Below are positions 24,064-53,052 of a stretch of 64,000 bases of DNA, one piece after another. The position numbers and the translations under genes are program-made. The notes below the pieces were generated by a model. The model saw nothing but the letters and a program-made list of their open reading frames with translations, was not told where the DNA came from and did no database searches. Each line of letters opens with the position of its first letter. The first letter of the stretch is position 1. Source of the DNA: Capsulimonas corticalis (GTDB lineage: Bacteria; Armatimonadota; Armatimonadia; Armatimonadales; Capsulimonadaceae); contig NZ_AP025739.1 in the NCBI RefSeq assembly GCF_003574315.2, positions 3,162,001 through 3,226,000 on the forward strand, read 5' to 3'.

Positions 24064-24390
24064 AAGCGTCGATCCAATCCGTTGGGGAGGCCCAATGTTG
24101 TGAAATAAGACTTCGACCGTGACCTACCCTCGGCCTTCGGCCGACCCCTCCGGGCAAACCCACCCCCGGGCTTTGGTCCCTTGCAAACCCACCCCCGCGC
24201 TTCGCGCGACCCCTCTCGCCGACGGGAAGGGTTCTTCAGAGTGTGTTATCGCAGGCGGCTACCGTAAGAGGCAATCTTACCAACCCTTCCTGTCGGCGGG
24301 AGGGGTCGCGCGAAGCGCGGGGGTGGGTTTGCAAGGGCTCGAAGCCCGAGAGTGGTTTTGTCCGGGGCAGGTTATGCCCCGGCGCGTGAT
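24064..24390. other. Repeat-filled gap within the chemotaxis operon
   Basis: No gene is present. The interval holds repeat A1 (24183-24332) and flanking fragments of the same GC-rich words: a CGGCCTTCGGCCG hairpin near 24130 and GGGCAAACCCACCCCCGGG before the left arm. Confidence 0.7.
24183..24332. repeat. Palindromic repeat family A, copy 1
   Basis: This 150-bp element has terminal arms of about 50 bp. The left arm begins GCAAACCCACCCCCGCGC and includes GACCCCTCTCGCCGACGGG; the right arm is its near-exact reverse complement. The centre contains CAGAGTGT-GTTATCGCAGG and GTAAGAGGCAATCTTA. Copy 2 at 40365-40514 is the same length and inserted in the opposite direction. Features of a MITE-like or REP-like element are clear; no ORF is present. 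Confidence 0.85.
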
Positions 24391-37150: not shown

Positions 37151-37612
37151 TCAGAAGTCTGGCGGCGCGCTCCAGTCGTACATGTATTTGAGCATTTTGG
37201 CGACTTGCAGGGATTCGATTCGCTGTACGCCGGGGATCTTGCTCAGGCGCTCGTGCAGAAACGCCAGCAGTTGTTCGTTGTCTTCAAACCATACTTCGGC
37301 GATGACGTCGTAGCTTCCTAAAGTCACTCCCGCAAACCTCACTTCCGGCATCGCGATCAGCGCTTCCTCCACTTGCGTGAGGTGCTGATGGTCGATCTGC
37401 AATCCCAAAATTGCGATGACGCGGTACCCAAGCTGAAAGGGCGTCGCGACGGCGACGATCTTGATCGCGCCCGCGCTCAGAAGCCGCTCCACGCGCCGGC
37501 GCACGGTCGGCTCCGTACTCCCCACCGTCTTGGCGATCTCCGAGTTCGTCAGGCGCGCATTCTCCTGAAGCACGCACACGATCCGATTGTCCAATTCATC
37601 CAGCGTCAGCAT
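37151..37612 (-). CDS. Lrp/AsnC-family transcriptional regulator
   Basis: The 153-residue protein has an N-terminal HTH (LDELDNRIVCVLQENARLTN, then EIAKTVGSTEPTVRRRVERL) and a C-terminal RAM/AsnC ligand domain (about 65-145; AILGLQIDHQHLTQVEEALI, GSYDVIAEVWF). ATG 37612 follows GGGAG by six bases. It is transcribed away from the guanidine-hydrolase operon across a 285-bp AT-rich region that carries repeated TGACGA half-sites. By family habit it should bind there as a dimer or octamer and respond to a small nitrogenous ligand, possibly guanidine or an amino acid; that is inference. Confidence 0.92.
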   Translation of the reverse strand: MLTLDELDNRIVCVLQENARLTNSEIAKTVGSTEPTVRRRVERLLSAGAIKIVAVATPFQLGYRVIAILGLQIDHQHLTQVEEALIAMPEVRFAGVTLGSYDVIAEVWFEDNEQLLAFLHERLSKIPGVQRIESLQVAKMLKYMYDWSAPPDF

Positions 37613-37660
37613 ATCGTTCTCCCATATCTCATGCTTCGGCAAACGACGTTTTTGCGCGTG

Positions 37661-37812
37661 TGACGAAATTATATCACATACTCCGTTGAAATTGACGATA
37701 TTCGTCATATATTTTTAAATTGTTAAATTTTTCGTCAAATGGTAAAATATTTTGAGCGAAAGTGTTGACAGAGGCTTTTTCCGCCAGTATACTATCCACA
37801 CCTCACTGACGA
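37661..37812. promoter_or_regulatory. Array of TGACGA half-sites, probable Lrp-type operator
   Basis: TGACGA or its complement TCGTCA occurs at 37661-37666, 37693-37698, 37702-37707, 37732-37737 and 37807-37812. The second and third form a perfect inverted repeat (TGACGA-TAT-TCGTCA), and the next half-site is exactly 30 bp from the third. Spacings near 30 bp place sites on one helix face, as Lrp-type octamers need. The array flanks the operon promoter. Confidence 0.6.
37765..37793 (+). promoter_or_regulatory. Consensus sigma-70 promoter of the guanidine/urease operon
   Basis: TTGACA at 37765-37770 and TATACT at 37788-37793 are separated by 17 bp. The expected transcript would have a leader of about 100 bases before ATG 37898. 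No known guanidine riboswitch was recognised in that leader. Confidence 0.8.
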
Positions 37813-37897
37813 GACGACGACGAGTAATCGGCGACGCCGCCCGCACACTCTTTTTACTTCACGAAACACTTTTGGCAACTACGGGAAGGGTACACCC

Positions 37898-39079
37898 ATG
37901 ACGGATGATCGTTCGCGCTTTGGCGTCCCACGAGAAGATTTGAAAGACAGTCAGGCCGCCGAGGCTCTGCGCCGCGAGGCCGAGCTGCCGGAGGCCGGAT
38001 GGCGAAAGGAAGTCGAACGGGGGCTGGAGCTTGGCTTGACCGCCGCGCCGAGCATCGGCGACCGCACCATCTCGACCTTTTCACGCGGCGAGCTGCCGCA
38101 CTTCGCGGGCATCAACACGTTTTTGAAGGCCCCGTATGTGGAGGATGTCCATAAGGCCGGCCAGTTCGACGCCGCCGTGTTCGGCATCCCGCTCGATACG
38201 GGAACGACCTACCGGGCCGGCACGCGCTTCGGTCCGCAGGGCGTCCGCCGTATTTCGGCGCTGTACGGCTCGTATTACTTCGATCTGGGGATCGATCTGC
38301 GCGAACAGATGACGCTCTGCGACCTGGGCGATGTCTTCGTCATTCCCGCGAACATCGAGAAGGCGTTCGATCAGATCAGCCGCGCCGTCTCGCACGTTTT
38401 TCGGAGCGGCGCTTTCCCGATCATGATCGGCGGCGACCATTCCATCGGCTACCCCTGCGTTCGCGGCGTCGCCCCGCATGTTAACGGCAACATCGGCATC
38501 ATTCATATTGACCGCCATGTCGATACGCAGGAGAAGGACATGGACGAGCGGATGCACACCACGCCGTGGTTCCATGCGACCAACATTGAGAACGCTCCGC
38601 CGAAGAATCTTGTGCAGTTCGGCATTGGCGGCTGGCAGGTGCCCCGCGCCGGCGTCAAAGTCGCCCGTGAACGCGGCACCACCATCATGACCATGACCGA
38701 TATCATGGATATGGGTCTGGACAAAGCGCTGGATATTGCGATCGAAGTGGCGAGCGAAGGGACCGAAGCGGTCTATCTGAGCTTCGACATCGACAGCATC
38801 GACGCCGGCTTCGTCCCCGGCACGGGCTGGCCGGAGCCGGGCGGCTTCACGCCCCGCGAAGCCCTGCGGATCGTCCAGCGCGTCGCACGTGAAACCAACC
38901 TCTGCGCCATGGAGCTGGTCGAAGTCTCGCCGCCGTACGATGTCAGCGACATGACCGCCTTGATGGGAACACGCGTCATCTGCGATGTCCTCGCCAATCT
39001 GGTCTTCGCCGAAAAGCTGCCCCGCCAGCGTCCGACCTGGCTGAACTCGGACCCGTCCACGGAGCCCTGGGCTCTTTAG
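37898..39079 (+). CDS. gdmH: Ni-dependent guanidine hydrolase-type ureohydrolase (GdmH-like)
   Basis: The 393-residue protein is an arginase/agmatinase-fold enzyme. Metal ligands are visible: H181 in GGDHSIG, D205, H207 and D209 in IDRHVDTQ, and D297 and D299 in SFDIDSID. Annotation pipelines would call it agmatinase. It has instead the pattern of the cyanobacterial guanidine hydrolase Sll1077/GdmH: a long N-terminal region of about 90 residues, DERMHTTPWFHATN, and a Trp in GTGWPEPGG (W311). It lies directly before HypA- and HypB-like genes, as known for GdmH. The reaction would be guanidine plus water to urea plus ammonia. Agmatinase or another guanidino substrate cannot be excluded from sequence alone. 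Confidence 0.8.
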   Translation: MTDDRSRFGVPREDLKDSQAAEALRREAELPEAGWRKEVERGLELGLTAAPSIGDRTISTFSRGELPHFAGINTFLKAPYVEDVHKAGQFDAAVFGIPLDTGTTYRAGTRFGPQGVRRISALYGSYYFDLGIDLREQMTLCDLGDVFVIPANIEKAFDQISRAVSHVFRSGAFPIMIGGDHSIGYPCVRGVAPHVNGNIGIIHIDRHVDTQEKDMDERMHTTPWFHATNIENAPPKNLVQFGIGGWQVPRAGVKVARERGTTIMTMTDIMDMGLDKALDIAIEVASEGTEAVYLSFDIDSIDAGFVPGTGWPEPGGFTPREALRIVQRVARETNLCAMELVEVSPPYDVSDMTALMGTRVICDVLANLVFAEKLPRQRPTWLNSDPSTEPWAL

Positions 39080-39092
39080 GAGATTCGGACCC

Positions 39093-39482
39093 ATGCCGCA
39101 TGAAGTGGACATGACCAAGGCGCTGATGATGAGCTTGAAGGACTGGCATTCGCAGCAGACCGAGCGCTGGCCGGTGCGCCGCGTCCAACTCGTGGTGGGC
39201 GAATTCACCTGTGTCGAACCTGATCTCTTGCGCACCGCGTTCGCGAAGCAAAAGCTGGGAACATTTCTCGAAAACGCCGAGATCGTCATTCGCGACAGCC
39301 CGTTCATCGCTTACTGCAACCGCTGCGAGCGCGAATACAAGCCCGATATCAATCTGGAGTACGCTTGCCCTGATTGCCGAGCGCCGCTGGACGATATCCG
39401 GTCCGGACGCGAACTGAAGATCGAAAAGATCGACTGGGATGTGCCCGCCCCGGTTTCCGCGGAGGCGGCGGCGCGGAATTAG
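39093..39482 (+). CDS. hypA: HypA-like nickel metallochaperone
   Basis: The 129-residue protein has the HypA zinc-finger pair C75-x2-C78 and C92-x2-C95 (YCNRCER, ACPDCRA). The N-terminus reads MPHEVDMTKA, whereas hydrogenase HypA normally starts MHE with His2 binding nickel; here a Pro shifts the His to position 3. No hydrogenase gene is present. Placed 13 bp after the guanidine-hydrolase gene with AGGAGA before the ATG, it probably helps load nickel into that enzyme, as the GhaA accessory protein does in cyanobacteria. Service to urease is also possible. Confidence 0.85.
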   Translation: MPHEVDMTKALMMSLKDWHSQQTERWPVRRVQLVVGEFTCVEPDLLRTAFAKQKLGTFLENAEIVIRDSPFIAYCNRCEREYKPDINLEYACPDCRAPLDDIRSGRELKIEKIDWDVPAPVSAEAAARN

Positions 39483-39508
39483 AGCGGCCCTCACCCGGCG
39501 GTCCGCGT

Positions 39509-39649
39509 GGCCCTCACCCCGGCTCCCTCTCCCAATTTTGGGAGAGGGGAGGCGGAATGAAATGAGGGCCCTTGATTTGAAGATCGGAAAAATAAAACTC
39601 TGGCTCCCCTTCTCCCAAAATTGGGAGAAGGGGCTGGGGGATGAGGGCC
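39509..39649. repeat. Palindromic repeat family B, copy 1
   Basis: The element opens GGCCCTCACCCC and closes with GGATGAGGGCC. The left part carries CCCTCTCCCAATTTTGGGAGAGGG and the right part CTTCTCCCAAAATTGGGAGAAG, each itself a hairpin. It fills the hypA-hypB gap. The closing arm supplies GAGGG nine bases before the hypB ATG. Copy 2 is at 61734-61887. Confidence 0.8.
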
Positions 39650-39656
39650 AATTCTT

Positions 39657-40352
39657 ATGATTACCGAAACCCAACAGCCCACGCTCACCTCAACGAGCGT
39701 GGACCTCGATATCAATATTCTCGAAGAAAATGACGACCTCGCCGCGCGCAGCCGCCGCCGGATGGAGGATCATGGGATCGCCTGCGTCAACATCATGTCC
39801 AGCCCCGGTTCGGGTAAGACGACGCTCTTGGAGCGGACGCTGACCGATCTGAACGGCGCCCTCAAGATCGGGATTATGGAAGGCGACATGACGACCGAAC
39901 TGGACGCGGAGCGACTCCGCGACTGCGGCGCGCCGGTCGTCGCGATCACCACCGGCCGGTCCTGCCATTTGGAGGCTGACCAGATCGCGGCGGGACTGGA
40001 TACTCTGGAGCGCGAGGGCGGCCTGGACCGCTTCGACCTGATGGTGATCGAAAACGTCGGGAATCTGATCTGCCCGGCGGCGTACGATCTGGGCGAGCAC
40101 ACCCGCGTCGTCCTGGTCGCCGTGACCGAGGGCGAGGACAAGCCGCTCAAGTACCCGATCATGTTCCACGGCGCCGACTGCGTCGTGATTACCAAGACGG
40201 ATCTCGCGCCGTATGTCAAACTGAATGTCGACAAATTGATCGCGAATATCCGTCAGGTCAACGCCACCGCCACCGTGTTCGCCGTTTCGTCCGAGACGGG
40301 CGAGGGGATGGAGATTTGGCTGGGGTGGCTGCGGGGACAGCGACGAGGGTAA
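39657..40352 (+). CDS. hypB: HypB-like nickel-handling GTPase
   Basis: The 231-residue protein has the SIMIBI GTPase P-loop SSPGSGKTT (48-56), the switch segment EGDMTTELDAERL, the metal-site-like GRSCHLEAD with adjacent Cys and His, and the NKxD-equivalent VITKTDLAP. It lacks the N-terminal CCGC or His-rich nickel-storage region present in some HypB proteins. It would drive GTP-dependent nickel delivery, together with the HypA-like protein, to the guanidine hydrolase (GhaB in cyanobacteria). Its Shine-Dalgarno sequence lies inside repeat B1, so translation might depend on the fold of that repeat. Confidence 0.88.
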   Translation: MITETQQPTLTSTSVDLDINILEENDDLAARSRRRMEDHGIACVNIMSSPGSGKTTLLERTLTDLNGALKIGIMEGDMTTELDAERLRDCGAPVVAITTGRSCHLEADQIAAGLDTLEREGGLDRFDLMVIENVGNLICPAAYDLGEHTRVVLVAVTEGEDKPLKYPIMFHGADCVVITKTDLAPYVKLNVDKLIANIRQVNATATVFAVSSETGEGMEIWLGWLRGQRRG

Positions 40353-40364
40353 TACACCCCCGGG

Positions 40365-40514
40365 GCAAACCCACCCCCGCGCTCCGCGCGACCCCTCCCG
40401 CCGACGGGAAGGGTGACTAAGATTGCCTCTTACAGTCGCGGCCTGCGATAAACACTCTGAAATCACCCTTCCCGTCGGCGGGAGGGGTCGCGCGAAGCGC
40501 GGGGGTGGGTTTGC
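40365..40514. repeat. Palindromic repeat family A, copy 2
   Basis: It is exactly 150 bp like copy 1, with arms beginning GCAAACCCACCCCCGCGC and ending in the reverse complement. The central segment (GATTGCCTCTTACAG, then CTGCGATAAACACTCTGA) matches copy 1 read on the other strand, so the two copies have opposite orientation. It occupies half the hypB-to-binding-protein gap; the remaining 130 bp hold no gene. Confidence 0.85.
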
Positions 40515-40650
40515 AGGGAGTCCGGGAAGCCCCGAGATAGATCTGCGTCAATATCAATATCCACACCCGCTCAACGACGAGCACCCTCGAGCATGGCGCT
40601 CGCTTCCTTAGGATCCGCAATTTGCGTTCACAAGAAAGGAACGATTGTCC

Positions 40651-41757
40651 ATGCAGGCCATCCGTACATCGAAATTCGTCAAACTTGCTCTTACTATAGC
40701 TCCTCTTGGCCTGATGCTCACCGCCTGCGGTCCCAAGACTCAGACGGCTTCCTCCACGGCCCCGACTCCCGGAGCTCCGGCGGCGGCTCCGCCCGCCGAC
40801 GCCACGCCGATCACGATCGGCTATTCCGACTGGCCCGGATGGACCTGCTGGGATATCGCGGATCAGCAGGGATTCTTCAAAAAGCATAATGTCAATGTCA
40901 AGCTCGTCTGGTTCCCGAACTACACGGATTCGCTGAACGCGATCACCGCGCAGCAGGTGGACGCTAACTGTCAGACCTGGAGCGACACCATGGGGCCGCT
41001 GGCTCAGGGGCAGGCGCTCAAGGCGGTTCTCATCAACGACAACTCCGCCGGGAACGACGCGGTGGTGGCGAAGGCCGGCATTACATCGATCAAGGATCTC
41101 AAGGGCAAGAAGGTCGCGACGGAGCTTGGCACCGTCGAGCAGTTTTTGCTGGATCAAGCCCTCGCCGCGAACGGCATGAGCGAGAAGGATATCCAGTATG
41201 TCAATATCAAGGTGCAGGACTGCCCCGCCGCGATGCTGAGCGGGAAGATCGACGCCTGCGCGGTGTGGGAGCCGAACAAGAGCCAGCTCCTCAAGAGCTT
41301 CCCCGGCTCCACGGTCATCTTCGACAGCAAGAAACTTCCCGGCCTGATCCCCGACTTGCTCGTCTTCCAGTCCAAGGTCGTCGATGCCCGGCCGGCGGAT
41401 ATCCAGAATATCGTCGACGCCTGGTATGACGCGCTCGACTGGTGGCGCGCGCATCCCGATGACGCCGTAAAGATCATGGCGAAGCGCACCGATTCCCCGG
41501 TCGATTTCTACAAGAGCTTCATCCAGGGCACGCGCATCTTCGATGCGACCGAAGCCGAAGCGGCCTTCACCAAGAGCGACAAACCGACTTCGCTTTACAA
41601 GAGCGCGCCGACGATCGGGCAGTTCCTGCTCGACCAGAAGCAGATTCCCAAGATCCCGGACTACGCCCCCGTGATCGACGACACGTTCATCAAGGCGGCG
41701 GTCGCGAAGGGTGAGGGCAAGCAGCCCCCGTACGACTATGCGCTGAAGGTGGATTAA
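40651..41757 (+). CDS. ABC transporter substrate-binding lipoprotein (NitT/TauT type), probable guanidine binding
   Basis: The 368-residue protein has a lipoprotein signal with lipobox LTAC (Cys26), a Thr/Ala/Pro-rich linker, and a periplasmic binding fold of the nitrate/taurine/sulfonate class: ITIGYSDWPGWTCWDIADQQ, FFKKHNVNVKLVWF and LKGKKVATELGTVEQF. AAAGGA precedes ATG 40651. Its membrane and ATPase partners follow. In cyanobacteria a related importer is linked to the guanidine hydrolase, so guanidine is the likely cargo; urea is the main alternative because urease genes follow. Confidence 0.9.
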   Translation: MQAIRTSKFVKLALTIAPLGLMLTACGPKTQTASSTAPTPGAPAAAPPADATPITIGYSDWPGWTCWDIADQQGFFKKHNVNVKLVWFPNYTDSLNAITAQQVDANCQTWSDTMGPLAQGQALKAVLINDNSAGNDAVVAKAGITSIKDLKGKKVATELGTVEQFLLDQALAANGMSEKDIQYVNIKVQDCPAAMLSGKIDACAVWEPNKSQLLKSFPGSTVIFDSKKLPGLIPDLLVFQSKVVDARPADIQNIVDAWYDALDWWRAHPDDAVKIMAKRTDSPVDFYKSFIQGTRIFDATEAEAAFTKSDKPTSLYKSAPTIGQFLLDQKQIPKIPDYAPVIDDTFIKAAVAKGEGKQPPYDYALKVD

Positions 41758-41858
41758 TCGCGCCATTCGTACTGTGGGAATGTGAATCCGCAGGCGGCGG
41801 GGCCGGAAACATGTTCGCCGGTCCCGCTGGAGAAATTGAGACGAAAGGAACCGCCACC

Positions 41859-42743
41859 ATGGCAAGCAGTCTTCCGACAACTCCGGCGATCGAGAATGCG
41901 GCGGCCGGCGCCGCGCCGGCGAGCGTGACGCCGACGCGCCGCCGGCCCGGCGCGCGTCTGTTCCGTATCGGCGGCGAGATCCCGCGCCCCGCGTACACGG
42001 CCATCGCGGCCGCGTCGTTTATTCTGCCGCTGCTGTTGTGGTGCTTCTTTACGTATAGCGGCCGGGCGAATGCGCTCGTGCTGCCGACCCCGACGCGGGT
42101 TTGGAACGCCGCGATTGAGATGTATCAAGGCGGCACGCTGCTGCCCGATATCCAGATCAGCATCTATCGCATTGGCATGGGTTTTTTGCTGTCGGCCGTC
42201 CTCGCGATCCCGATTGGCATTTTGATGGGCGCATACAAATCCGCCGAAGCCGCGCATGAGCCGCTCGTCGGCTTTATCCGTTATGTCCCCGTTCCGGCGC
42301 TGATCCCGCTCGTCATGGTGGTCGCCGGAATCGATGAAGCCGCGAAGATCGCGCTGATCTTTATCGGCACATACTTCCAGATGGTCTTGGTGGTCGCCGA
42401 CGTCACGCGTCAGGTGCCAAGAGACCTGCTGAACGCGGCGCGCACGCTGGGCGCCAATGGCCGCCAGCTTTTATTCAATGTGCTGCTGCCGGCGACCCTG
42501 CCCGGCCTGCTCGACACCTGCCGCACGATGATCGGCTGGGCGTGGACGTATCTGGTCATCGCCGAAGTCGTCGCCACCAGCTCCGGCATGGGATATATGC
42601 TGCTCAAGGCGCAGCGCTTCTCCCGGTCGGACGAAATGTTCGTCGGCATCATCATTCTGGGCCTGCTCGGTCTTCTGACCGACATCGCCTTCAAGCTGAT
42701 CCAGCCTCGGCTCGTGCCGTGGGCCGACCTCAACAAGAACTGA
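41859..42743 (+). CDS. ABC transporter permease (NitT/TauT type)
   Basis: The 294-residue protein has about six membrane segments (from SFILPLLLWCFFTYS onward) and the EAA-like loop AARTLGANGRQLLFNVLLPATLPG that contacts the ATPase. The N-terminal 45 residues are Ala/Pro-rich and cytoplasmic. ATG 41859 follows AAAGGA; the frame is open further upstream but without a better start. It lies between the binding-protein and ATPase genes and would form the channel dimer of the importer. Confidence 0.93.
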   Translation: MASSLPTTPAIENAAAGAAPASVTPTRRRPGARLFRIGGEIPRPAYTAIAAASFILPLLLWCFFTYSGRANALVLPTPTRVWNAAIEMYQGGTLLPDIQISIYRIGMGFLLSAVLAIPIGILMGAYKSAEAAHEPLVGFIRYVPVPALIPLVMVVAGIDEAAKIALIFIGTYFQMVLVVADVTRQVPRDLLNAARTLGANGRQLLFNVLLPATLPGLLDTCRTMIGWAWTYLVIAEVVATSSGMGYMLLKAQRFSRSDEMFVGIIILGLLGLLTDIAFKLIQPRLVPWADLNKN

Positions 42744-42779
42744 GCAAGAGCGAAGTTGAGTCTGAACGGAGAGGGAGCG

Positions 42780-43649
42780 ATGACAGACACTTTGACCGCC
42801 GGGCGCATTATGCCCGCGCCGCTGATCCCGGAAGAAGATCCGAACGCCGGGCCGATCCTGCGGGTCGACCGCGTCGGTAAGGATTACCCCACGAAATCGG
42901 GGGCGCTCACCGTGCTGGAGCCGACCTCCTTTACCATGCAGACCAGCGAACTGGTGAGCATCGTCGGGCCGTCGGGCTGCGGCAAGTCCACGCTGCTGCA
43001 TATCGTCGGCGGCCTGGTCGAACCGACCTCTGGCTCGGTCTATCTCGACGGCGTCGAAGTCCACGAGCCGAGCCGCGAGCGCGGCATGGTCTTCCAGGCG
43101 TACACGCTGTTCCCGTGGCGCACGGTCTACCAGAACGTGCAGTTCGGCCTGGAGATGCGCGGCCTGCCGCGCAAGGGTCGTGAGCGGATCGCGGACAAAT
43201 TCCTGGAGGCCGTGGGCCTTTCGGACTTCAAGAACCACTATCCCAAACAACTATCGGGAGGCATGCGCCAGCGCGTCGCCATCGCCCGCGCCCTCGCCAA
43301 CGCCCCGCGTATCTTATTGATGGACGAGCCCTTCGGCGCCCTCGACGCCCAGACGCGCGCCGTCATGCAGGACTTAGTGCTGGATATCCGAAGGCGCGAG
43401 CGCATCACGACTCTCTTCATCACGCACGACATCGACGAAGCCGTCTATCTCAGCGACCGCATCTTCGTCATGACCGCGCGTCCCGGACACATCAAGGCCG
43501 AGATCCACGTCCCCTTCGGCCCGGACCGCAGCGACGCCCTGCGCAATGCCCCCGAGTTCCTGGAAATTCGCAAGCAAGTGCATGAACTGCTTTATGAAGA
43601 AGGGAAAGCCGTGGTGGATGCAGAAATCGCGAGCGGAAGCAAGAAGTGA
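42780..43649 (+). CDS. ABC transporter ATPase (NitT/TauT type)
   Basis: The 289-residue protein has Walker A GPSGCGKST (63-71), the Q-loop region MVFQAYTLFPWRTV, the signature LSGGMRQRVAIARAL, Walker B ILLMDEPFGALD and the switch His in FITHDIDEAVYL. This is the standard NitT/TauT ATPase set. GGAGAGGGAG precedes ATG 42780. It ends 9 bp before repeat C1, beyond which the urease genes begin. Confidence 0.95.
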   Translation: MTDTLTAGRIMPAPLIPEEDPNAGPILRVDRVGKDYPTKSGALTVLEPTSFTMQTSELVSIVGPSGCGKSTLLHIVGGLVEPTSGSVYLDGVEVHEPSRERGMVFQAYTLFPWRTVYQNVQFGLEMRGLPRKGRERIADKFLEAVGLSDFKNHYPKQLSGGMRQRVAIARALANAPRILLMDEPFGALDAQTRAVMQDLVLDIRRRERITTLFITHDIDEAVYLSDRIFVMTARPGHIKAEIHVPFGPDRSDALRNAPEFLEIRKQVHELLYEEGKAVVDAEIASGSKK

Positions 43650-43657
43650 GCGGAAAA

Positions 43658-43775
43658 GATGCCCCCCGACCCCCACAGGGGGTGCAAACCATAAATATGT
43701 TGACGTGACAAAGAGTAAATCTCGACACGTTTTTGAAAATATGTTCTGCACCCCCTGTGGGGGTCGGGGGGCATC
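43658..43775. repeat. Palindromic repeat family C, copy 1
   Basis: The 118-bp element has arms of 29 bp starting GATGCCCCCCGACCCCCACA and ending in the reverse complement. The AT-richer core includes ACCATAAATATGTTGACGTG and ACAAAGAGTAAATCT. Copy 2 at 46460-46577 is also 118 bp, with its core in the opposite direction. It lies between the importer and ureG, ending 16 bp before the ureG start. Confidence 0.88.
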
Positions 43776-43791
43776 CTGAAAGGCAATATAC

Positions 43792-44532
43792 ATGAGTGAA
43801 TCGCGCGCATTCCGCGTCGGCGTGGCCGGCCCTGTGGGCAGCGGCAAGACGGCGCTGGTGGACTGTTTGAGCAAGGCGCTGACGCAAAAGTACAGCCTGG
43901 CCGTCGTCACCAACGATATCTATACAAAGGAAGACGCGGAGTTTTTGCTGCGGCAGGGAACGCTTCCCATGGATCGCGTGCGCGGCGTGGAGACCGGTGG
44001 CTGTCCGCATGCGGCGATCCGGGAAGATGCGTCGATGAACCTGGAGGCGATCGCCGATCTGGAGGACACGCTGCCGGGATTGGAGCTGATCTTTGTGGAG
44101 AGCGGCGGCGACAATCTGGCGGCCGCGTTCAGTCCAGAATTGGTGGATGTGGCGATCTACGTGATCGACGTCTCCGGCGGGGACAAGATCCCGCGCAAGG
44201 GCGGACCCGGCATTATGCGCTCGGACTTGCTGCTGATCAACAAGACGGATCTGGCGCCGCTGGTTGGAGCTTCTTTAGAAGTAATGGACCGGGACGCGCG
44301 TAAGATGCGCGGCGATCTGCCGTTTCTCTTCACGAACATGAAGAGCGGCGAGGGCCTCAGTTCGGTCATTGAGTGGCTGGAGGCGAAGATCGCGCAGCCG
44401 GAGTGGAAGACGATCATCGACGCCCACGCGCCGTATGTCGGCCGCCTGCATACGCACGATCATGACGACGATCACGGTCACTCGCACGACCATAGCCACG
44501 CGAACGGACACGTCCACACGCATGTCCATTGA
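43792..44532 (+). CDS. ureG: Urease accessory GTPase UreG with His-rich C-terminal tail
   Basis: The 246-residue protein is a typical UreG up to about residue 215: P-loop GPVGSGKT (14-21), [14 protein letters not shown], the nickel-site motif [12 protein letters not shown], and [10 protein letters not shown]. It then carries a 27-residue tail holding 12 histidines alternating with Asp and Ser. Known UreG proteins of plants and some bacteria have His-rich N-termini instead, and UreE usually supplies the His tail. No ureE is present here, so the tail may store or pass nickel. AAAGG precedes ATG 43792. The gene order starts with ureG, unlike the usual DABCEFG. Confidence 0.95.
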
Positions 44533-45220
44533 GCTGCTGCGCTTGATGCAGATCGCGGATAGCGCCGTGCCGATCGGCGCGGCGTCGCATTCGTTCGGGA
44601 TCGAAACGCTGACGGATGAAGGCTCGCTGACGGTGGAGCGGCTTCCCGAGTTTCTCGAAGGCTATCTCGCCGAGACCGGCGCGCTCGACGCCTCCTGGTG
44701 CCGCGCTGGCTGGCGTCTCGCCCGAGTGTCCCGCGAAGACTTCACTTCCGAGTGGACGCGGCTCAGCGACCGGGTCGGCGCGCGCAAGCCGGCGCGGGAA
44801 GGCCGGGAGGCAAGCGCTATGCTCGGGCGCCGCCTGCTGCAATTGGTGGATGGATTATCGCCGGGGCATCCCGCCGTCGCCGAGGCCGTGCGTTTGACGA
44901 AGTCATCGGCGGGTTTGGCGGCGGTCCCGGCGCACCACGCCGCCGCTTTTGGTCTCGCCGGCGCCGCGCTGCGCTGTCCCGAGGACTTGGTCGCGCAGAC
45001 ATATTTGCAGCAGAACGTGATGGGACTGGTGTCGGCGTGCCAGCGCCTGTTGCCGCTGGGGCAAAGCGCGGCGGGATGTATTTTGTGGGACATCAAGCCG
45101 GCGTTGATCCGCGCCGCCGCGCCGTCCGAAGATAATGAGGAGATCGCTTGCTTCACGCCCTCGATCGATCTGGCGGGGATGCGCCACCCGTGGCTGACCA
45201 CCCGCCTGTTCATCAGCTAA
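44522..45220 (+). CDS. ureF: Urease accessory protein UreF
   Basis: The 232-residue all-helical protein matches Ure[21 protein letters not shown] at the N-terminus, GIETLTDEG, and the C-terminal [12 protein letters not shown]-like segment ([14 protein letters not shown]). UreF bridges UreD and UreG in the activation complex that loads nickel into urease. ATG 44522 overlaps the 3' end of ureG, within the codons of its His-rich tail, so the two are translationally linked. Confidence 0.92.
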
Positions 45221-45234
45221 GCGGCCCGAATCGC

Positions 45235-46104
45235 CTTGAGCCCAGCGGCCAAAACCGCCGTGTGGACGGCGTCCTTTCGCTTACGTTTGGCGTGAACGCG
45301 CAGGGCCTAACCTGCCTGCGCGAGCAGTCGCACCGTCCGCCGCTGCAAGTCGTCCGCGCCTTCCGCCAGCCGGACGGCGGCGTGCTGACCCACTTGCACA
45401 ATGTCTCCGGCGGCGTGCTTGGCGGAGATCGTCTCACGCAGGAGTTCACCCTGGACGCCGGCGCGCAAGTTCAATTGACGACGACCAGCGCCACGCGCAT
45501 CTATCGCGCGCGCGAAGGCGACGCTGAGGCGCTTCAGACGACACGGATCCAGGTCGGCCCCAACGGAATTTTGGAGTACTTGCCCGATACGACGATCCCC
45601 TTCGGCGGCGCTCGTTATCGACAGGACACGACAATCGATTTGAGCGATAACGCCGGCCTCTTCTGGTGGGAAACGCTCGCGCCCGGCCGCGCCGCCCAGG
45701 GGGAAATCTTCGCTTACGAATCCGTGATCCTGCGCGCTGCGATCCGAGCGAACGGCCGCGAGATCGCCGCCGAGCATCTGCGCCTGGAGCCTGCGCGCGC
45801 GCCGCTCGCCTCCAGCGCCCGGCTTGGCCCTTATCGCTATTTCACCACGTTTTACGCCTGCCGCGTCGGCGCGACGGTTTCACAACTGCGTCAATTGGAG
45901 ACAGATCTCCACGAGATCGCCGCGTCGCGGACGCCCCCCGGCGTCGATGTCTGGGGCGTCAGCACACTCTCTGCCCACGGCGTCTGTATCCGGGGCCTGA
46001 GCGTGCGCGGTCTCCATATCGCCGCCGACCTCTACGCCTTCTGGGACTGCGCCCGCCGCGCCCTTTACGGCGCCGGCGCCGTGGCGCCGCGCAAGATCAA
46101 TTGA
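45235..46104 (+). CDS. ureD: Urease accessory protein UreD (UreH)
   Basis: The roughly 289-residue protein has the UreD hallmarks HLHNVSGGVLGGDRL, TTTSATRIYRA, LEYLPDTTIPF and LFWWETLAPGRAA. UreD is the scaffold that binds apo-urease and, with UreF and UreG, channels nickel to the active site. The start is uncertain: the frame is open back into ureF, TTG 45235 is taken here because it falls just after the ureF stop, and GTG 45262 is a good alternative. No clear Shine-Dalgarno sequence is visible for either. Confidence 0.9.
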   Translation, partial: LEPSGQNRRVDGVLSLTFGVNAQGLTCLREQSHRPPLQVVRAFRQPDGGVLTHLHNVSGGVLGGDRLTQEFTLDAGAQVQLTTTSATRIYRAREGDAEALQTTRIQVGPNGILEYLPDTTIPFGGARYRQDTTIDLSDNAGLFWWETLAPGRAAQGEIFAYESVILRAAIRANGREIAAEHLRLEPARAPLASSARLGPYRYFTTFYACRVGATVSQLRQLETDLHEIAASRTPPGVDVWGVSTLSAHGVCIRGLSVRGLHIAADLYAFWDCARRALYGAGAVAPRKIN

Positions 46105-46143
46105 CAAACGAATTTGACGCACTGATCGAATGGAGAACCGCCC

Positions 46144-46446
46144 ATGCATCTCACCCCGCGTGAGCAGGAAAAACTCATGCTCTTTCTCGCCAGCGAACTC
46201 GCACGCAAGCGCCAGGCGCGCGGCCTCAAGCTCAACTATCCGGAAGCCGTCGCGATCCTGAGCGCTGAGATCATGGAGATGGCCCGCGACGGCAAGAGCG
46301 TCGCCGAAATCATGTCCCTCGGCAACACCATTCTCAGCCGCGAGGACGTGATGGAGGGGATTCCGGAGATGATCCACGAGGTGCAGGTGGAGGCGACGTT
46401 CCCTGACGGAACGAAGCTGGTGACGCTGCATGAGCCGATACATTAG
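46144..46446 (+). CDS. ureA: Urease gamma subunit UreA
   Basis: The 100-residue protein is a standard Ure[41 protein letters not shown] and VTLHEPIH at the end. It forms the outer part of the urease trimer with UreB and UreC. GGAGAA precedes ATG 46144. Repeat C2 separates it from ureB, which is unusual because ureA and ureB normally adjoin closely. Confidence 0.97.
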
Positions 46447-46459
46447 GAGAAGCCCCTCG

Positions 46460-46577
46460 GATGCCCCCCGACCCCCACAGGGGGTGCAAACCGTATCATC
46501 GAAAGCGTGTCTAGATTTACTCTTTGTCACGTCAACATATTTATGGTTTGCACCCCCTGTGGGGGTCGGGGGGCATC
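46460..46577. repeat. Palindromic repeat family C, copy 2
   Basis: It is 118 bp with the same arms as copy 1 and an inverted core. In this copy the symmetry extends seven more bases on both sides (GCCCCTC before and GAGGGGC after), making a perfect outer stem longer than in copy 1. It lies between ureA and ureB and ends about 12 bp before the ureB ribosome binding site. Confidence 0.88.
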
Positions 46578-46605
46578 CGAGGGGCCTCCCCAGGAGACCC
46601 CCAAC

Positions 46606-46935
46606 ATGATTCCCGGAGAAATCTGGACCGAGCCCGGCGACATCGCCGCCAATGTCGATCGTCCGACCGTGCAAGTGATTGTCAGCCATACCGGTGACCG
46701 GCCGATTCAAATCGGCAGTCATTATCATTTTTTCGAAGTCAATCCGGCGCTGACGTTCGACCGCGACGCCGCGCGCGGGATGCGGCTGAATATCGCGGCC
46801 GGGACCGCCGTGCGCTTTGAGCCGGGCGAGGAGAAGGAAATCACCCTCGTCGCGTTCGCCGGAGATCGCATTGTCTTTGGGCACAACGCCCTTGTGTCCG
46901 GCCCGCTCGATAAGAACCCAGGAGATCCCGCATGA
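46606..46935 (+). CDS. ureB: Urease beta subunit UreB
   Basis: The 109-residue protein has the UreB features [52 protein letters not shown] and the [13 protein letters not shown] end. It packs against UreC in the urease core. AGGAGACCC precedes ATG 46606. Its stop overlaps the ureC start by four bases (ATGA). Confidence 0.97.
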
Positions 46936-48653
46936 GTCTGCACATTCCGCGCGCTACTTACGCCGATCTGTACGGCCCGACGACCGGGGACCGGGTGCGG
47001 CTTGCCGATACGGAGCTGGTCGTCGAAGTGGAAAAAGACTTTACGGTCTACGGCGATGAGATCACCTTTGGCGGCGGCAAGGTCATTCGGGACGGCATGG
47101 GGCAGAGCAGTACGGCGACGCGCGCGCATGGCGGCGTGCTGGATCTGGTCATCACCAATGCGCTGATTATCGATCACTGGGGCATCGTCAAGGGCGATAT
47201 CGGCGTGCGCGATGGACGCATCGTTAAGGTCGGCAAGGCGGGCAACCCGGATACGATGGCGGGCGTGGATCCGGATCTGGTCGTCGGCGCGAGCACCGAG
47301 GTCATCGCGGGCGAGCATTTGATTGTGACGGCGGGCGCCATCGACAGCCACATCCACTTTATCTGCCCGCAGCAGATTTATGAGGCGATGTCGGGCGGGA
47401 TCACGACCATGATCGGCGGCGGGACGGGACCGGCGACGGGGACCAACGCCACCACCTGCACACCCGGCGCATGGAACATGGCGCGAATGCTGCAATCGGC
47501 GGACGCCTGGCCGATCAACTTCGGCTTTTTGGGCAAGGGCAACGCCTCGGCGGCCGCGCCGCTGGAGGAGCAGATCCGGTCCGGCGCCTGCGGTCTGAAA
47601 CTGCACGAGGACTGGGGGACGACGCCTGCCGCGATTGACATGTGCCTGACCGTCGCGGACGAGTTCGACGTTCAAGTCGCGATCCATACGGACACGATCA
47701 ACGAGGCGGGATATCTGGAGAACACCGTCGCAGCGATTGCCGGCCGCGCGATCCACACTTACCACACGGAAGGCGCCGGCGGCGGGCATGCGCCGGACAT
47801 TATCAAGATCGCGAGCTACCCCAATATCCTGCCGTCGTCCACGAACCCGACTCGGCCTTACACGGTGAACACGATTGCCGAGCATTTAGATATGCTGATG
47901 GTCTGCCACCATCTCAATCCGCAAGTGCCCGAAGATGTCGCGTTCGCCGAAAGCCGTATCCGGCCGGAGACCATCGCCGCCGAGGATATTCTGCACGACC
48001 TGGGCGTCATCAGCATGATCTCTAGCGACTCGCAGGCGATGGGGCGCATCGGCGAGGTTGTGACGCGCTGCTGGCAGACGGCGCACAAGATGAAGACACA
48101 GCGTGGCTCGCTGGCGGGGGATCCTTCGCGCAACGACAATACGCGCGTGAAGCGCTACATCGCTAAATACACGATCAATCCGGCAAGGACCCACGGCGTC
48201 GCGCAGCATATCGGCTCCATCGAGCCGGGCAAACTTGCGGATTTAGTCCTCTGGAAGCCGGCGTTCTTCGGCGTCAAGCCCGAGATGATCGTCAAGGGCG
48301 GATTTATCTCCTGGGCGGCGATGGGCGATCCGAACGCCTCCATTCCCACGCCGCAGCCGGTCATCTATCGGCCGATGTTTGGTTCGTTCGGCGGCGCCGT
48401 CGCGCCGACATCGCTCACGTTTGTCTCCCAGGCGGCGCTGAACGAGGGCGTGCCGGAATCCATCGGCCTGCGCAAAACCGCCGTCGCCGTGTCGGGCTGC
48501 CGCACGGTCGGCAAGGCCGATATGGTCCACAATGACGCCATGCCGAACATCGAAGTCGATCCCGAGACTTACGAAGTGCGCGCCGACGGCGAATTGCTCA
48601 CCTGCGAACCGGCGTCCTCCCTGCCGATGGCGCAGCGTTATTTCCTGTTTTAA
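46932..48653 (+). CDS. ureC: Urease alpha (catalytic) subunit UreC
   Basis: The 573-residue catalytic subunit has all nickel-site residues: H140 and H142 in [10 protein letters not shown], the carbamylated K223 in [10 protein letters not shown]252 in IHTDTINE, H278 in [14 protein letters not shown] and D366 in SSDSQAMGR. The mobile-flap Cys-His pair is C325-H326 in MVCHHLNP. It hydrolyses urea to ammonia and carbamate. With the upstream guanidine hydrolase it would finish conversion of guanidine to three ammonia. GGAG precedes ATG 46932. Confidence 0.98.
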
Positions 48654-48662
48654 GAGGTCTGA

Positions 48663-49364
48663 ATGTCAAGCGTCCTTGTTTTGCAGCATGAAGATTGTGA
48701 GCCGCTGGGATTTATCGAAGATGCTCTCAATGGATATGATCTAAAGCCTCAGTACATCCGGGCGTACGCGGGCGACGCCGTTCCGGAAACGATGGGCGAC
48801 GCGGGCGGCCTCGTCGTCCTGGGTGGTCCGCAGGGGGCGTATGAGACCGACAAGCATCCTTATCTGGCCGGAGAGATTCGGCTGATCCAGAACGCCTTGC
48901 AAGCGGAGACGCCGGTGCTGGGGATGTGCCTGGGGGCGCAGCTGATGGCGGCGGCGCTGGGAGCGCGCGTCGCGCCGGCGCCGCAAAAGGAGATCGGCTG
49001 GTACCCGGTCACACTGACGGAGGCGGCTGGGGAGGATCCGCTCTGGCGGAAGATCGAGCCTGTGTTTATGACGCTGCAATGGCATGGGGACATCTTCGAC
49101 CTGCCTGATGGCGCGGTGCGCCTGGGGGCATCGGCGCTGACTCCGAACCAGGCGTTCCGTTACGGGCGCGGCGCCTACGGGGTACAGTGGCATATGGAGA
49201 TGACGGAAGAGGTCATTCGGGAAACGGCGGGGGCGTCGGAAGCGTCCTTTGCGGCGTCGGGTCTCAGTCCTGCGGTGATCCTGGACGGCGTTGAAGCGCA
49301 TTTGCCGAACTTGAGCCGTATCGCGGGAATTGTCTTTCGCGGCTGGGCCGAACTTGTCGTATAA
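48663..49364 (+). CDS. Class I glutamine amidotransferase-like protein
   Basis: The 233-residue protein has the GATase fold: VLVLQHEDCEPLGFIEDAL, VVLGGPQGAYE, the nucleophile Cys in GMCLGAQLMAAALG and the partner His in YGVQWHMEMTEE. It resembles stand-alone GMP-synthase-like amidotransferases or gamma-glutamyl hydrolases that act on glutamine-type amides. It starts 10 bp after ureC with GAGG before ATG 48663, so it likely shares the operon transcript. A link to ammonia handling is plausible but unproven. Confidence 0.88.
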   Translation: MSSVLVLQHEDCEPLGFIEDALNGYDLKPQYIRAYAGDAVPETMGDAGGLVVLGGPQGAYETDKHPYLAGEIRLIQNALQAETPVLGMCLGAQLMAAALGARVAPAPQKEIGWYPVTLTEAAGEDPLWRKIEPVFMTLQWHGDIFDLPDGAVRLGASALTPNQAFRYGRGAYGVQWHMEMTEEVIRETAGASEASFAASGLSPAVILDGVEAHLPNLSRIAGIVFRGWAELVV

Positions 49365-51048: not shown

Positions 51049-53052
51049 ATGACGCCGCGACCACTTTCTCAGCCAACTCCCCAATCACCAATAGAGGCGG
51101 AGCGTGTTCGCGTGATCCCCGTTCGCTGGGGCTATCCCATCGCCGTCGCGCTGCCGCTGATCGTTTTGAACTGCGGCTGGATCGCAAATTCGGAGATGAA
51201 GACGGGCGTGACGGAAGTAACGATCTCATCGCTATTCATTGGCGTCACCTTTATTCTCTTCGTCGTCACGCTTTTGAACTTGGTCGTCCGGAAGTTCGCC
51301 GGGGCGCGGGCAGCGATGAATCAGCCGGAGATGATGGTGCTTTATACGATGCTCTCGATGTCGAGCGTCGTGGCGGGCATGGGGAATTACGGCTTTTTTA
51401 CGCCGTTTTTAGCCAATCTTTTCTACTACGATCGTCCCGCGAACGGCTGGCATAGCTTCTGGTATCTGCTCCCGTCGTTTATTGGGCCGCGCGATCCCAA
51501 TGTTCTCAAGGGCTTTTATGAGGGACATTCGAGTTTTTTTCAGCCGCAGGTCCTTGCCGCTTGGACGCCGCCGCTGCTCGTCTGGAGCGTGTTCTTTTTG
51601 ATCTTGCTCTGGACGACGATGTGCATGGGCGCCATCGTCCGCCGCCGATGGACCGAAGACGAACATCTCCCATTTCCGGTCATCGCGCTGCCGCTGGAGA
51701 TGACGCGCGAGGGGGCGCCGCTCTACCAAAGCAAACTGCTCTGGGTAGGGTTCGCCGTTCCGTTCCTATTGCACTCGCTCAATTCGCTCGCCAGCATTAT
51801 TCCCACGCTGCCGTCGCTGCCGATCAATACCGTCAAGGACATGGTGACGAGCCTGCAATATCCCTGGACCGGCGTGGGCGCGCTCACCTACGCGCTGCAT
51901 CCGGTGGGAGTGGGAATGGGCTATCTGGTCTCGACGGATGTCTCGTTCTCGATGTGGTTCTTCTATCTGCTGCGCAAGGCGGCCGATGTCTGGGGGACTT
52001 CGCAAAATTGGCGCGACGCTTCGATCGGCCGATACGCCGACGGCAATGGGCAGTTTCCGTACATCAACAGTCAGGGCTGGGGATCGTGGCTGGCGCTCGG
52101 CGCCGCGACGCTCTGGGTGGGGCGCGGCTACTTCAAAGCGTACTTTCAGCGCGCGCTGCGCGGAGACCATCACGGCGTCGATCGCGACGAGCCGATGAGC
52201 GCCCGTGTCGCTGTTGCCGGGCTGATCGTCGGCTTTCTCATGCTCTGCGCTTTTGTCTGGTCGCAGGGCGGCTCGTGGTGGCTTCCCGTTCTGTTCCTGA
52301 CGCTTTACATCTTGCTGATGACGGCGCTGACGCGCATTCGCGCCGAGGTCGCCGTGCTGTCGAGCCAGCTTGTCTGGGTAAACCCGCAGAGCATGATCAC
52401 CACGGTCCTGGGCGCGGGCAACCTCTCCAAAGTTGACCTGGCGCACACGAGTATGCTGTCCTGGTTCAATACGGACTACCGCGCCGCGCCGATGCCCCAC
52501 GAACTCGAAGGCTTCGTCGGATTGAAGCGATCCGGCGGCGCGCTGCGCCCGCTCGTTCCCGTGATTCTGCTCGCCGCCGCCGTCGCGATGGTCAGCGCCC
52601 TGGTCTGGGACATGCAGATGTACTATGTGAACGGCGCCGCGACGGACAATGTCAACGGCTACCGGGTCAGCAAGGGCTCGGAGCCGTGGACGAATCTCCA
52701 GGGCTGGCTGCAAAATCCCAAGCCCCCGAACGCGGCGGCGATGGGCGGAATCGTGTTTGGCGCGGCGACAACCTTGCTGCTCTCCGCGCTTCGCACCCGC
52801 TTTGTCGGTTTCCCGCTGCACCCGGCGGCGTATGCGTTTAACATGACGTTTGCAAACGATTTCTTCTGGTGCGATATGTTCGTCGCCTGGCTGGTCAAAG
52901 TTTGCCTGCTGCGCTACGGCGGCATGAAGATGTATCAGACGCTGCTGCCGCTGTTCTTTGGACTGATCCTGGGCGACTTCGTGACGGGATCCTTCTGGAG
53001 TATTGTCGGGACGATCTTTCATTTGAATCTTTTCCGGACGTTCGCTACCTAG
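51049..53052 (+). CDS. DUF6785-like multi-spanning membrane protein (first of tandem pair)
   Basis: The 667-residue protein has more than ten hydrophobic segments. Typical stretches are YPIAVALPLIVLNCGWIANS, NQPEMMVLYTMLSMSSVVAG and LLVWSVFFLILLWTTMCMG. Such proteins are common and uncharacterised in Planctomycetota and Armatimonadota and look somewhat like oligopeptide-type transporters; the family name is from memory. A second copy follows after 79 bp. Parts of the two genes are identical at the DNA level while other parts have diverged. The start is ATG 51049, behind a consensus promoter. Confidence 0.75.
   Translation: MTPRPLSQPTPQSPIEAERVRVIPVRWGYPIAVALPLIVLNCGWIANSEMKTGVTEVTISSLFIGVTFILFVVTLLNLVVRKFAGARAAMNQPEMMVLYTMLSMSSVVAGMGNYGFFTPFLANLFYYDRPANGWHSFWYLLPSFIGPRDPNVLKGFYEGHSSFFQPQVLAAWTPPLLVWSVFFLILLWTTMCMGAIVRRRWTEDEHLPFPVIALPLEMTREGAPLYQSKLLWVGFAVPFLLHSLNSLASIIPTLPSLPINTVKDMVTSLQYPWTGVGALTYALHPVGVGMGYLVSTDVSFSMWFFYLLRKAADVWGTSQNWRDASIGRYADGNGQFPYINSQGWGSWLALGAATLWVGRGYFKAYFQRALRGDHHGVDRDEPMSARVAVAGLIVGFLMLCAFVWSQGGSWWLPVLFLTLYILLMTALTRIRAEVAVLSSQLVWVNPQSMITTVLGAGNLSKVDLAHTSMLSWFNTDYRAAPMPHELEGFVGLKRSGGALRPLVPVILLAAAVAMVSALVWDMQMYYVNGAATDNVNGYRVSKGSEPWTNLQGWLQNPKPPNAAAMGGIVFGAATTLLLSALRTRFVGFPLHPAAYAFNMTFANDFFWCDMFVAWLVKVCLLRYGGMKMYQTLLPLFFGLILGDFVTGSFWSIVGTIFHLNLFRTFAT

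Follow-up and report, generated by a model that had tools for sequence, protein, structure and literature searches.

The gene for the Ni-type guanidine hydrolase (guanidinase) GdmH is known from an operon with hypA, hypB and genes for an ABC importer, and gdmH-like genes often stand under riboswitches "in a wide range of microorganisms" (PMC8390497); a picocyanobacterial version of this operon has been described as well (PMC10119275). The row of genes analysed here lies at positions 37151-49364 of the window, a 64,000-nucleotide stretch of the genome of Capsulimonas corticalis (Armatimonadota), which is a single contig of 7,645,051 bases rated 95.74% complete. With a probability of about 0.78, we read the row as a guanidine-assimilation operon in which a divergently encoded Lrp/AsnC-type protein, acting on an array of sites in the spacer before gdmH, would do the job of the guanidine-I riboswitch. 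What appears new is the presence of four modules (guanidinase, nickel chaperones, importer and urease) on one piece and, above all, their probable control by an Lrp-type regulator instead of a riboswitch.

The Synechocystis operon sll1077-sll1082 resembles the window in its enzyme family and in having hypA, hypB, a substrate-binding protein (SBP), a permease and an ATPase (PMC8390497), but it has a guanidine-I riboswitch and its urease genes lie elsewhere (PMC11410670), whereas in the window no riboswitch was found, the regulator is Lrp-type and urease is part of the row. The comammox Nitrospira locus (riboswitch, APC permease, guanidinase) shares with the window the Thr and Trp specificity residues, and most of those genomes have urease; it differs in its APC permease and its riboswitch, and the nickel chaperones are described there as not nearby (PMC11410670). 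Rubrobacter and Dactylosporangium likewise have gdmH near urease, and Dactylosporangium an ABC importer too, but both have a guanidine-I riboswitch and neither shows HypA/HypB in the fetched stretches. The Aminobacter dmgH cluster also combines a Ni ureohydrolase, hypA, hypB and downstream urease, but its dimethylguanidine hydrolase is heteromeric, belongs to another branch and uses another substrate than GdmH (PMC11399263). In the open literature, as covered by titles and the starts of abstracts, the guanidine sensors named are RNAs (riboswitches, aptamers), with no protein transcription factor among them. The same titles and abstracts show no such locus in Armatimonadota, as a preliminary description made from the DNA letters alone had supposed.

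Guanidinase, importer, nickel chaperones and urease

Translations and family scans recovered all the genes that the preliminary description had named, in the order and on the strands given there. Relatives were the best 80 of 503 confirmed gdmH loci from a scan of named genomes, and are for that reason an uneven sample; many of the fetched stretches end at contig ends, and neighbouring genes were called by tblastn with the window's proteins at E<=1e-8. The closest by GdmH is the sibling Capsulimonas sp. RYN_270 (L006; 97%); two others needed below are L007 (Chloroflexaceae; 84%) and L008 (Chloroflexales; 83%).

GdmH (37898-39079, forward strand) scores 591 bits with the Synechocystis guanidinase (7esr/7oi1) and 554 bits with that of Nitrospira inopinata (9fek) in phmmer comparison with the PDB. 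The next solved enzymes are a guanidinobutyrase at 175 bits and then others at 162, 161 and 140, the last a metformin hydrolase subunit; subunits B and A of metformin hydrolase, from the group of the Aminobacter enzyme, score only 140 and 114 bits. Guanidine specificity has been tied to Thr97 and Trp305, as numbered in Synechocystis (PMC11410670), and by alignment offsets these correspond to T104 and W311 of the window's GdmH, where both specificity residues are intact. In an alignment of 86 guanidinase rows, two of them duplicates (L095 = L018, L099 = window), 84 carry the Thr (the others have an A and a gap) and 82 the Trp (the others have a T and three gaps). H181, D205, H207, D209, D297 and D299, which we take to be the ureohydrolase metal ligands, are conserved in every aligned row that is ungapped there. 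By these comparisons the enzyme is a GdmH-type guanidinase, with guanidine hydrolysis as its predicted activity. One further ureohydrolase-like place in the genome has 28% identity and a stop inside the match.

Three forward-strand genes encode a NitT/TauT-type importer: an SBP with a lipoprotein-like signal (40651-41757; TIGR01728 above cut-off), a permease (41811-42743; PF00528) and an ATPase (42756-43649; PF00005, with its start at TTG 42756 or ATG 42780). The SBP start is placed at ATG 40651, and its residue numbers are counted from TTG 40645. The SBP passes the cut-off of the broad SsuA family and stays well short of those of specific models, the best of which is "putative urea ABC transporter" at 156 of 334 bits. 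It is 42-46% identical to the SBPs of the riboswitch-linked guanidine operons L105, L107, L037 and L052, the last two being gdmH operons. Its best two plasmid relatives, each 46% identical, come from Cupriavidus and Paenibacillus. The Cupriavidus gene, which is accompanied by riboswitches of the guanidine-I and guanidine-II classes, is followed by a permease, an ATPase, two urea amidolyase associated proteins and a "urea carboxylase"; that of Paenibacillus has a guanidine-I riboswitch directly upstream in otherwise unannotated surroundings. Enzymes annotated as urea carboxylase mostly prefer guanidine (PMC12186494). A Paraburkholderia SBP gene (38%) has a riboswitch directly upstream, and an Azospirillum one (30%), in a urea carboxylase/allophanate hydrolase cluster, has none in its stretch. 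W66, W69, D114, D132, S134, G136 and D138 are each present in at least 62 of 67 gdmH-linked SBPs, and in the alignment the solved sulfonate SBP 2x26 has P, P and E in place of D114, D132 and D138. By this evidence, a grouping by pairwise identities and conserved residues rather than a tree, the importer is a guanidine importer, its substrate being predicted.

The nickel chaperones are encoded on the same strand by hypA (39093-39482; PF01155, TIGR00100 above cut-off) and hypB (39657-40352; TIGR00073 at 282.7 bits, cut-off 121.2). HypD (PF01924) has no match in the genome, in a search that did detect it in 4 genomes out of 14, including E. coli, so that HypA and HypB are not explained by a hydrogenase; the idea that they are hydrogenase leftovers was dismissed on this ground. 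The window's HypA and that of L007 begin with M-P-H-E and the sibling's with a TTG start followed by P-H-E; cyanobacterial HypA has a single residue (M or V as read) ahead of H-E. Loss of the first Met would put a His back at position 2. HypB retains a Cys-His pair plus a later Cys, which presumably have metal roles.

The urease set UreA, B, C, D, F and G is complete in the row, again on the forward strand: ureG (43792-44532), ureF (44522-45220; PF01730), ureD (45148-46104; PF01774, start uncertain between TTG 45148 and GTG 45262), ureA (46144-46446; TIGR00193), ureB (46606-46935; start ATG 46606) and ureC (46932-48653). UreG, UreB and UreC were assigned by translation and by tblastn to relatives (UreC also by PF00449) rather than by family scans of their own. 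In both Capsulimonas UreG has a His-rich tail at its C-terminus. The only urease alpha subunit that PF00449 detects anywhere in the genome is that of this row, and we discarded a second urease elsewhere by the same search. UreE (PF02814, UreE_N) was found in neither the locus nor the genome; this search was positive in 2 of 14 genomes, and a diverged UreE could escape it. A class-I glutamine amidotransferase-like protein (48663-49364, forward strand; PF00117) follows 9 bp past ureC, and it follows ureC in the sibling as well (69% identity). A match to Rfam 5_ureB_sRNA at 47103-47382 on the reverse strand, antisense to ureC, probably mirrors coding sequence, because the urease loci L093, L094 and L108 give the same match.

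In the pathway that we propose, the importer would take guanidinium into the cell, HypA and HypB would load GdmH with nickel, and GdmH would split guanidine into urea and ammonia. Urease, assembled by UreG, UreF and UreD without UreE and supplied with nickel from the UreG tail and possibly by HypA/HypB, would then split the urea to release two further molecules of ammonia. In the described systems GdmH yields urea directly (PMC8390497, PMC11410670). The claim of the preliminary description that the locus carries guanidine from uptake to ammonia is well supported at the level of sequence, by the identity of GdmH, the guanidine-type importer, the sole urease alpha subunit in the row and the lack of HypD; enzyme activity, nickel loading, importer substrate and a single transcript are predictions from the same data. 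Armatimonadota are thereby added to the likely guanidine users, and, given that genome searches for urease alpha, HypD and UreE turned up only the urease of this row, HypA/HypB could be studied here together with both nickel enzymes of a single row.

Riboswitch searches and a candidate operator array

The most unusual point about the row was missed by the preliminary description: no guanidine riboswitch was found, and in its place stands a regulator of Lrp type together with a candidate operator array that is conserved. A covariance model (R1) built from the guanidine-I riboswitches of five relatives detects such a riboswitch in 64 of the 80 fetched loci; one of these matches, where a contig begins, is partial. 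The Rfam model RF00442 has no match in the window at the gathering threshold, none at E<=10 over 37400-44000, and none in the whole genome, and R1 run unfiltered over the window gives at best 10.4 bits, at 24161-24239, distant from gdmH. The idea of a hidden or diverged guanidine-I riboswitch was rejected on these scans. Guanidine-II, -III and -IV riboswitches were absent from the window in a whole-library Rfam scan, which is the extent of the search with those models in this genome; the relatives were reached by them only through whole-library scans of the Rfam-scanned loci.

The remaining 16 of the 80 loci show no Rfam guanidine riboswitch at gathering either (L006, L007, L008, L020, L025, L028, L034, L046, L056, L062, L063, L068, L071, L077, L078 and L081), although in L007, L020, L063 and L068 an upstream one could escape because the stretches begin near the operon. 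All but L006 and L007, which makes 14 of the 16, are also without a tblastn match to the window's regulator. In a quick tree of 82 of the 86 guanidinase rows (two duplicates left out, L033 with 69 residues and L060 with none extracted dropped), which has flagged long branches and was used only for this group and its placement, the window, L006, L007 and L008 form one group (99%) among mostly riboswitch-bearing rows, which suggests that the riboswitch was lost. Among the riboswitch-less loci, L028, L046 and L078 are verrucomicrobial guanidinase loci with an ABC importer; His-rich N-terminal extensions occur in L028 and L078.

The regulator (37151-37612, reverse strand) has an AsnC-type helix-turn-helix (PF13404) and a ligand domain (PF01037). 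Its open reading frame (ORF) reaches 37708, and the start is more likely ATG 37612 than 37708; the ORF of the sibling begins six residues ahead of that Met. Orthologues stand divergent from gdmH in the sibling (96%) and in L007 (61%). The genome itself has two other matches to the regulator, both partial, over 54 and 71 residues, and a plasmid search for homologues returned 155 records, all below 60%, with the 12 rows listed reaching 38% at most.

The spacer between the regulator and gdmH (37613-37897) contains a 15-bp palindrome core, TGACGAWATTCGTCA, in an array of roughly 31-bp spacing. This candidate operator array (37661-37745) comprises an imperfect site from 37661, the palindrome TGACGATATTCGTCA at 37693-37707 and a half-site TCGTCA at 37732-37737, and it lies beside a sigma-70-type promoter directed toward gdmH, TTGACA-17-TATACT (37765-37793, forward strand), which has 11 of 12 consensus positions; the equivalent promoter scores 11/12 in L006 and 12/12 in L007. 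Both Capsulimonas have the palindrome as TGACGATATTCGTCA; in L007, whose spacer is mostly unalignable with that of the window, it reads TGACGAAATTCGTCA. L006 shares the geometry of the whole array and L007 that of its first two sites: the half-sites TGACGA/TCGTCA fall at 48, 80, 89, 119 and 194 in the window, at 25, 57, 66, 96 and 150 in the sibling, and at 29, 60 and 69 in L007. The last Capsulimonas half-site (194 and 150) is beyond the promoter; the remaining sites are spaced 30-32 bp apart, about three helical turns. The start of the palindrome and the -35 hexamer are 72, 51 and 29 bp apart, with steps of 21 and 22, or about two turns, which in three sequences is only suggestive. Lrp/AsnC proteins typically have palindromic 15-bp operators phased by whole helical turns, and the array conserved in these three sequences is a candidate for one.

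The L007 spacer matches the window's site at 14 of 15 positions, a level attained by a single one of 3000 shuffles of that spacer with its dinucleotides kept. The pattern TGACGAWNTTCGTCA occurs exactly once in the genome, and at one mismatch or fewer it has 18 distinct places, this spacer included; four of the 17 one-mismatch places were inspected by eye, with no obvious nitrogen genes beside them. Among the compared loci the exact pattern is confined to L001, L003, L006, L007 and L096, which are the window, sibling and L007 organisms. We infer from this conservation across two phyla that the Lrp-type protein probably binds the candidate operator.

The Lrp/AsnC-type protein would bind the approximately 31-bp-spaced sites with core TGACGAWATTCGTCA next to the consensus promoter and would either activate or repress; guanidine, urea and a nitrogen-status metabolite are candidate ligands. 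A transcription factor would in this way have replaced the riboswitch in this locus, and the regulator is possibly a guanidine sensor. The fuller proposal, that it is a guanidine-sensing transcription factor which, in one branch of the guanidinase tree, took over the riboswitch's job and governs urease and nickel loading along with import and the guanidinase, we put forward tentatively, as one that could well prove wrong. Guanidine metabolism is known largely through riboswitches, and this lineage, in which enzyme, chaperones and importer were kept, both offers a candidate protein sensor for guanidine and lets RNA control be compared in nature with protein control of the same pathway.

Weighing the alternatives

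A regulator that senses general nitrogen status (glutamine, arginine) and turns on scavenging in nitrogen hunger would differ from the guanidine sensor only in its ligand, and we regard it as a serious possibility, though not one to be relied on. Lrp/AsnC proteins are mostly amino-acid binders, and the failure to find a guanidine-I riboswitch anywhere in the genome also fits such a regulator, but the protein is a local divergent partner kept with gdmH in two phyla, and the genome's single exact site and the four inspected near matches count against this reading as well. Far less probable is a hydrolase that acts on another guanidino compound (agmatine, guanidinobutyrate or one like dimethylguanidine) imported by the same transporter. 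Dimethylguanidine or metformin is indeed the substrate of related Ni enzymes that have HypA/HypB and urease in their neighbourhood (PMC11399263), and the best NCBIfam model for GdmH is "agmatinase", although its 210.7 bits do not reach the cut-off of 302. The wide gap between the scores to guanidinases and to all other solved enzymes, the retained T104 and W311, and the guanidine-I riboswitches in most relatives' loci make such a substrate very improbable.

It is also unlikely, if less so, that the row consists of two independent units, one for guanidinase and importer and the other a urease operon of the usual sort, which became adjacent by chance. Repeat elements do lie between the ATPase gene and ureG, and urease structural genes share the gdmH stretch in only 9 of the 80 relatives (L018, L030, L031, L039, L044, L062, L064, L072 and L078). 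However, in the sibling the ATPase-ureG distance is 30 bp, urea is what GdmH makes, and gdmH has urease neighbours in Actinomycetota and Verrucomicrobiota too.

Several points weigh against an operon under Lrp-type control in place of a riboswitch. The operator motif derives from three sequences, two of them from one genus. L008 has no regulator, palindrome or riboswitch in the 2.2 kb upstream of gdmH, and the regulator is therefore not fixed in the clade; nor is lack of a riboswitch peculiar to it, since thirteen further loci, some of them cut short, have neither riboswitch nor regulator. The spacer of the window has other, weaker promoter-like sites, so that the position of the promoter says little on activation versus repression. 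Linkage to urease is seen within the clade only in Capsulimonas: the L007 contig ends in the ATPase gene and its metagenome-assembled genome (MAG) has no urease match, and the L008 MAG has urease on another contig. The sibling's SBP gene falls between contigs and was not seen, and Chondrocystis (L109) has an SBP (32%) that shares the conserved residues, in a stretch of 8.8 kb where neither a guanidine gene nor a riboswitch is annotated. Transcription may end at the repeat elements within the row, and a completeness rating of 95.7% means that absences in the genome are not absolute.

Distribution, repeat elements and other features

Thirteen of the 80 fetched loci are cyanobacterial and 67 are not. 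HypA and HypB are both near gdmH in 15, namely the 13 cyanobacteria, L006 and L007; the L008 contig terminates inside a hypA start. None of the nine urease-linked loci shows HypA/HypB in its fetched stretch, and in none of the 80 loci do the four modules occur together on one piece, contig ends cutting many stretches. The suggestion that the set is new outside cyanobacteria has to be narrowed accordingly: most of the relatives are not cyanobacterial, the gdmH-hypA-hypB-ABC arrangement is in print (PMC8390497), and urease near gdmH recurs in those nine loci.

In the sibling the gene order is the same on two contigs, one with regulator-gdmH-hypA-hypB (L006) and the other with permease-ATPase-ureGFDABC-amidotransferase (L093); its permease (68%) and amidotransferase diverge more than its other proteins. 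Four of the 151 Armatimonadota genomes searched match at E<=1e-60, with that of C. corticalis and the sibling's included, and a search of 82 Chloroflexales genomes for a longer, urease-bearing contig gave three matches and no better contig. Two other Armatimonadota genomes (L004 and L005) have gdmH behind a gene that by eye resembles glutamine synthetase, which would be another way of coupling guanidine nitrogen to assimilation. L108, on a plasmid of Rubrobacter indicoceani, is a cluster of riboswitch, gdmH, sodium symporter, formamidase and urease, in which the symporter may be an alternative carrier of guanidine or urea.

The gaps 39482-39657, 40352-40651 and 43649-43792, and a fourth at 46447-46605, contain palindromic, MITE-like repeat elements of three kinds. 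The hypA-hypB spacer with its inverted repeat (39483-39656) is 174 bp long here and 4 bp in the sibling; the hypB-SBP spacer (40353-40650) holds an element at 40353-40520, where the sibling's contig ends, and a second copy of this element lies at 24183-24336, with arms 89% and 96% identical. An inverted repeat of about 120 bp between the ATPase gene and ureG (43657-43778) occupies a spacer of 142 bp, and a 93% identical copy in the opposite orientation (46459-46577) lies between ureA and ureB, in a spacer of 159 bp versus 57 bp in the sibling. The genome has 33 match rows to elements of this last kind and the sibling MAG has 17, with both strands and part matches counted. The microRNA "families" that Rfam matched at E<=10 were rejected as hairpin repeat elements, not RNAs of those families.

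Elsewhere in the window, 25503-26570 has three tandem 300-nt copies spaced 384 nt apart, the other two being 84% and 69% identical to the first, within an ORF of 992 amino acids. Positions 51101-51400 and 53148-53447 are 82% identical and form the starts of neighbouring ORFs (667 and 655 amino acids; membrane proteins by eye), a likeness that is probably due to duplication.

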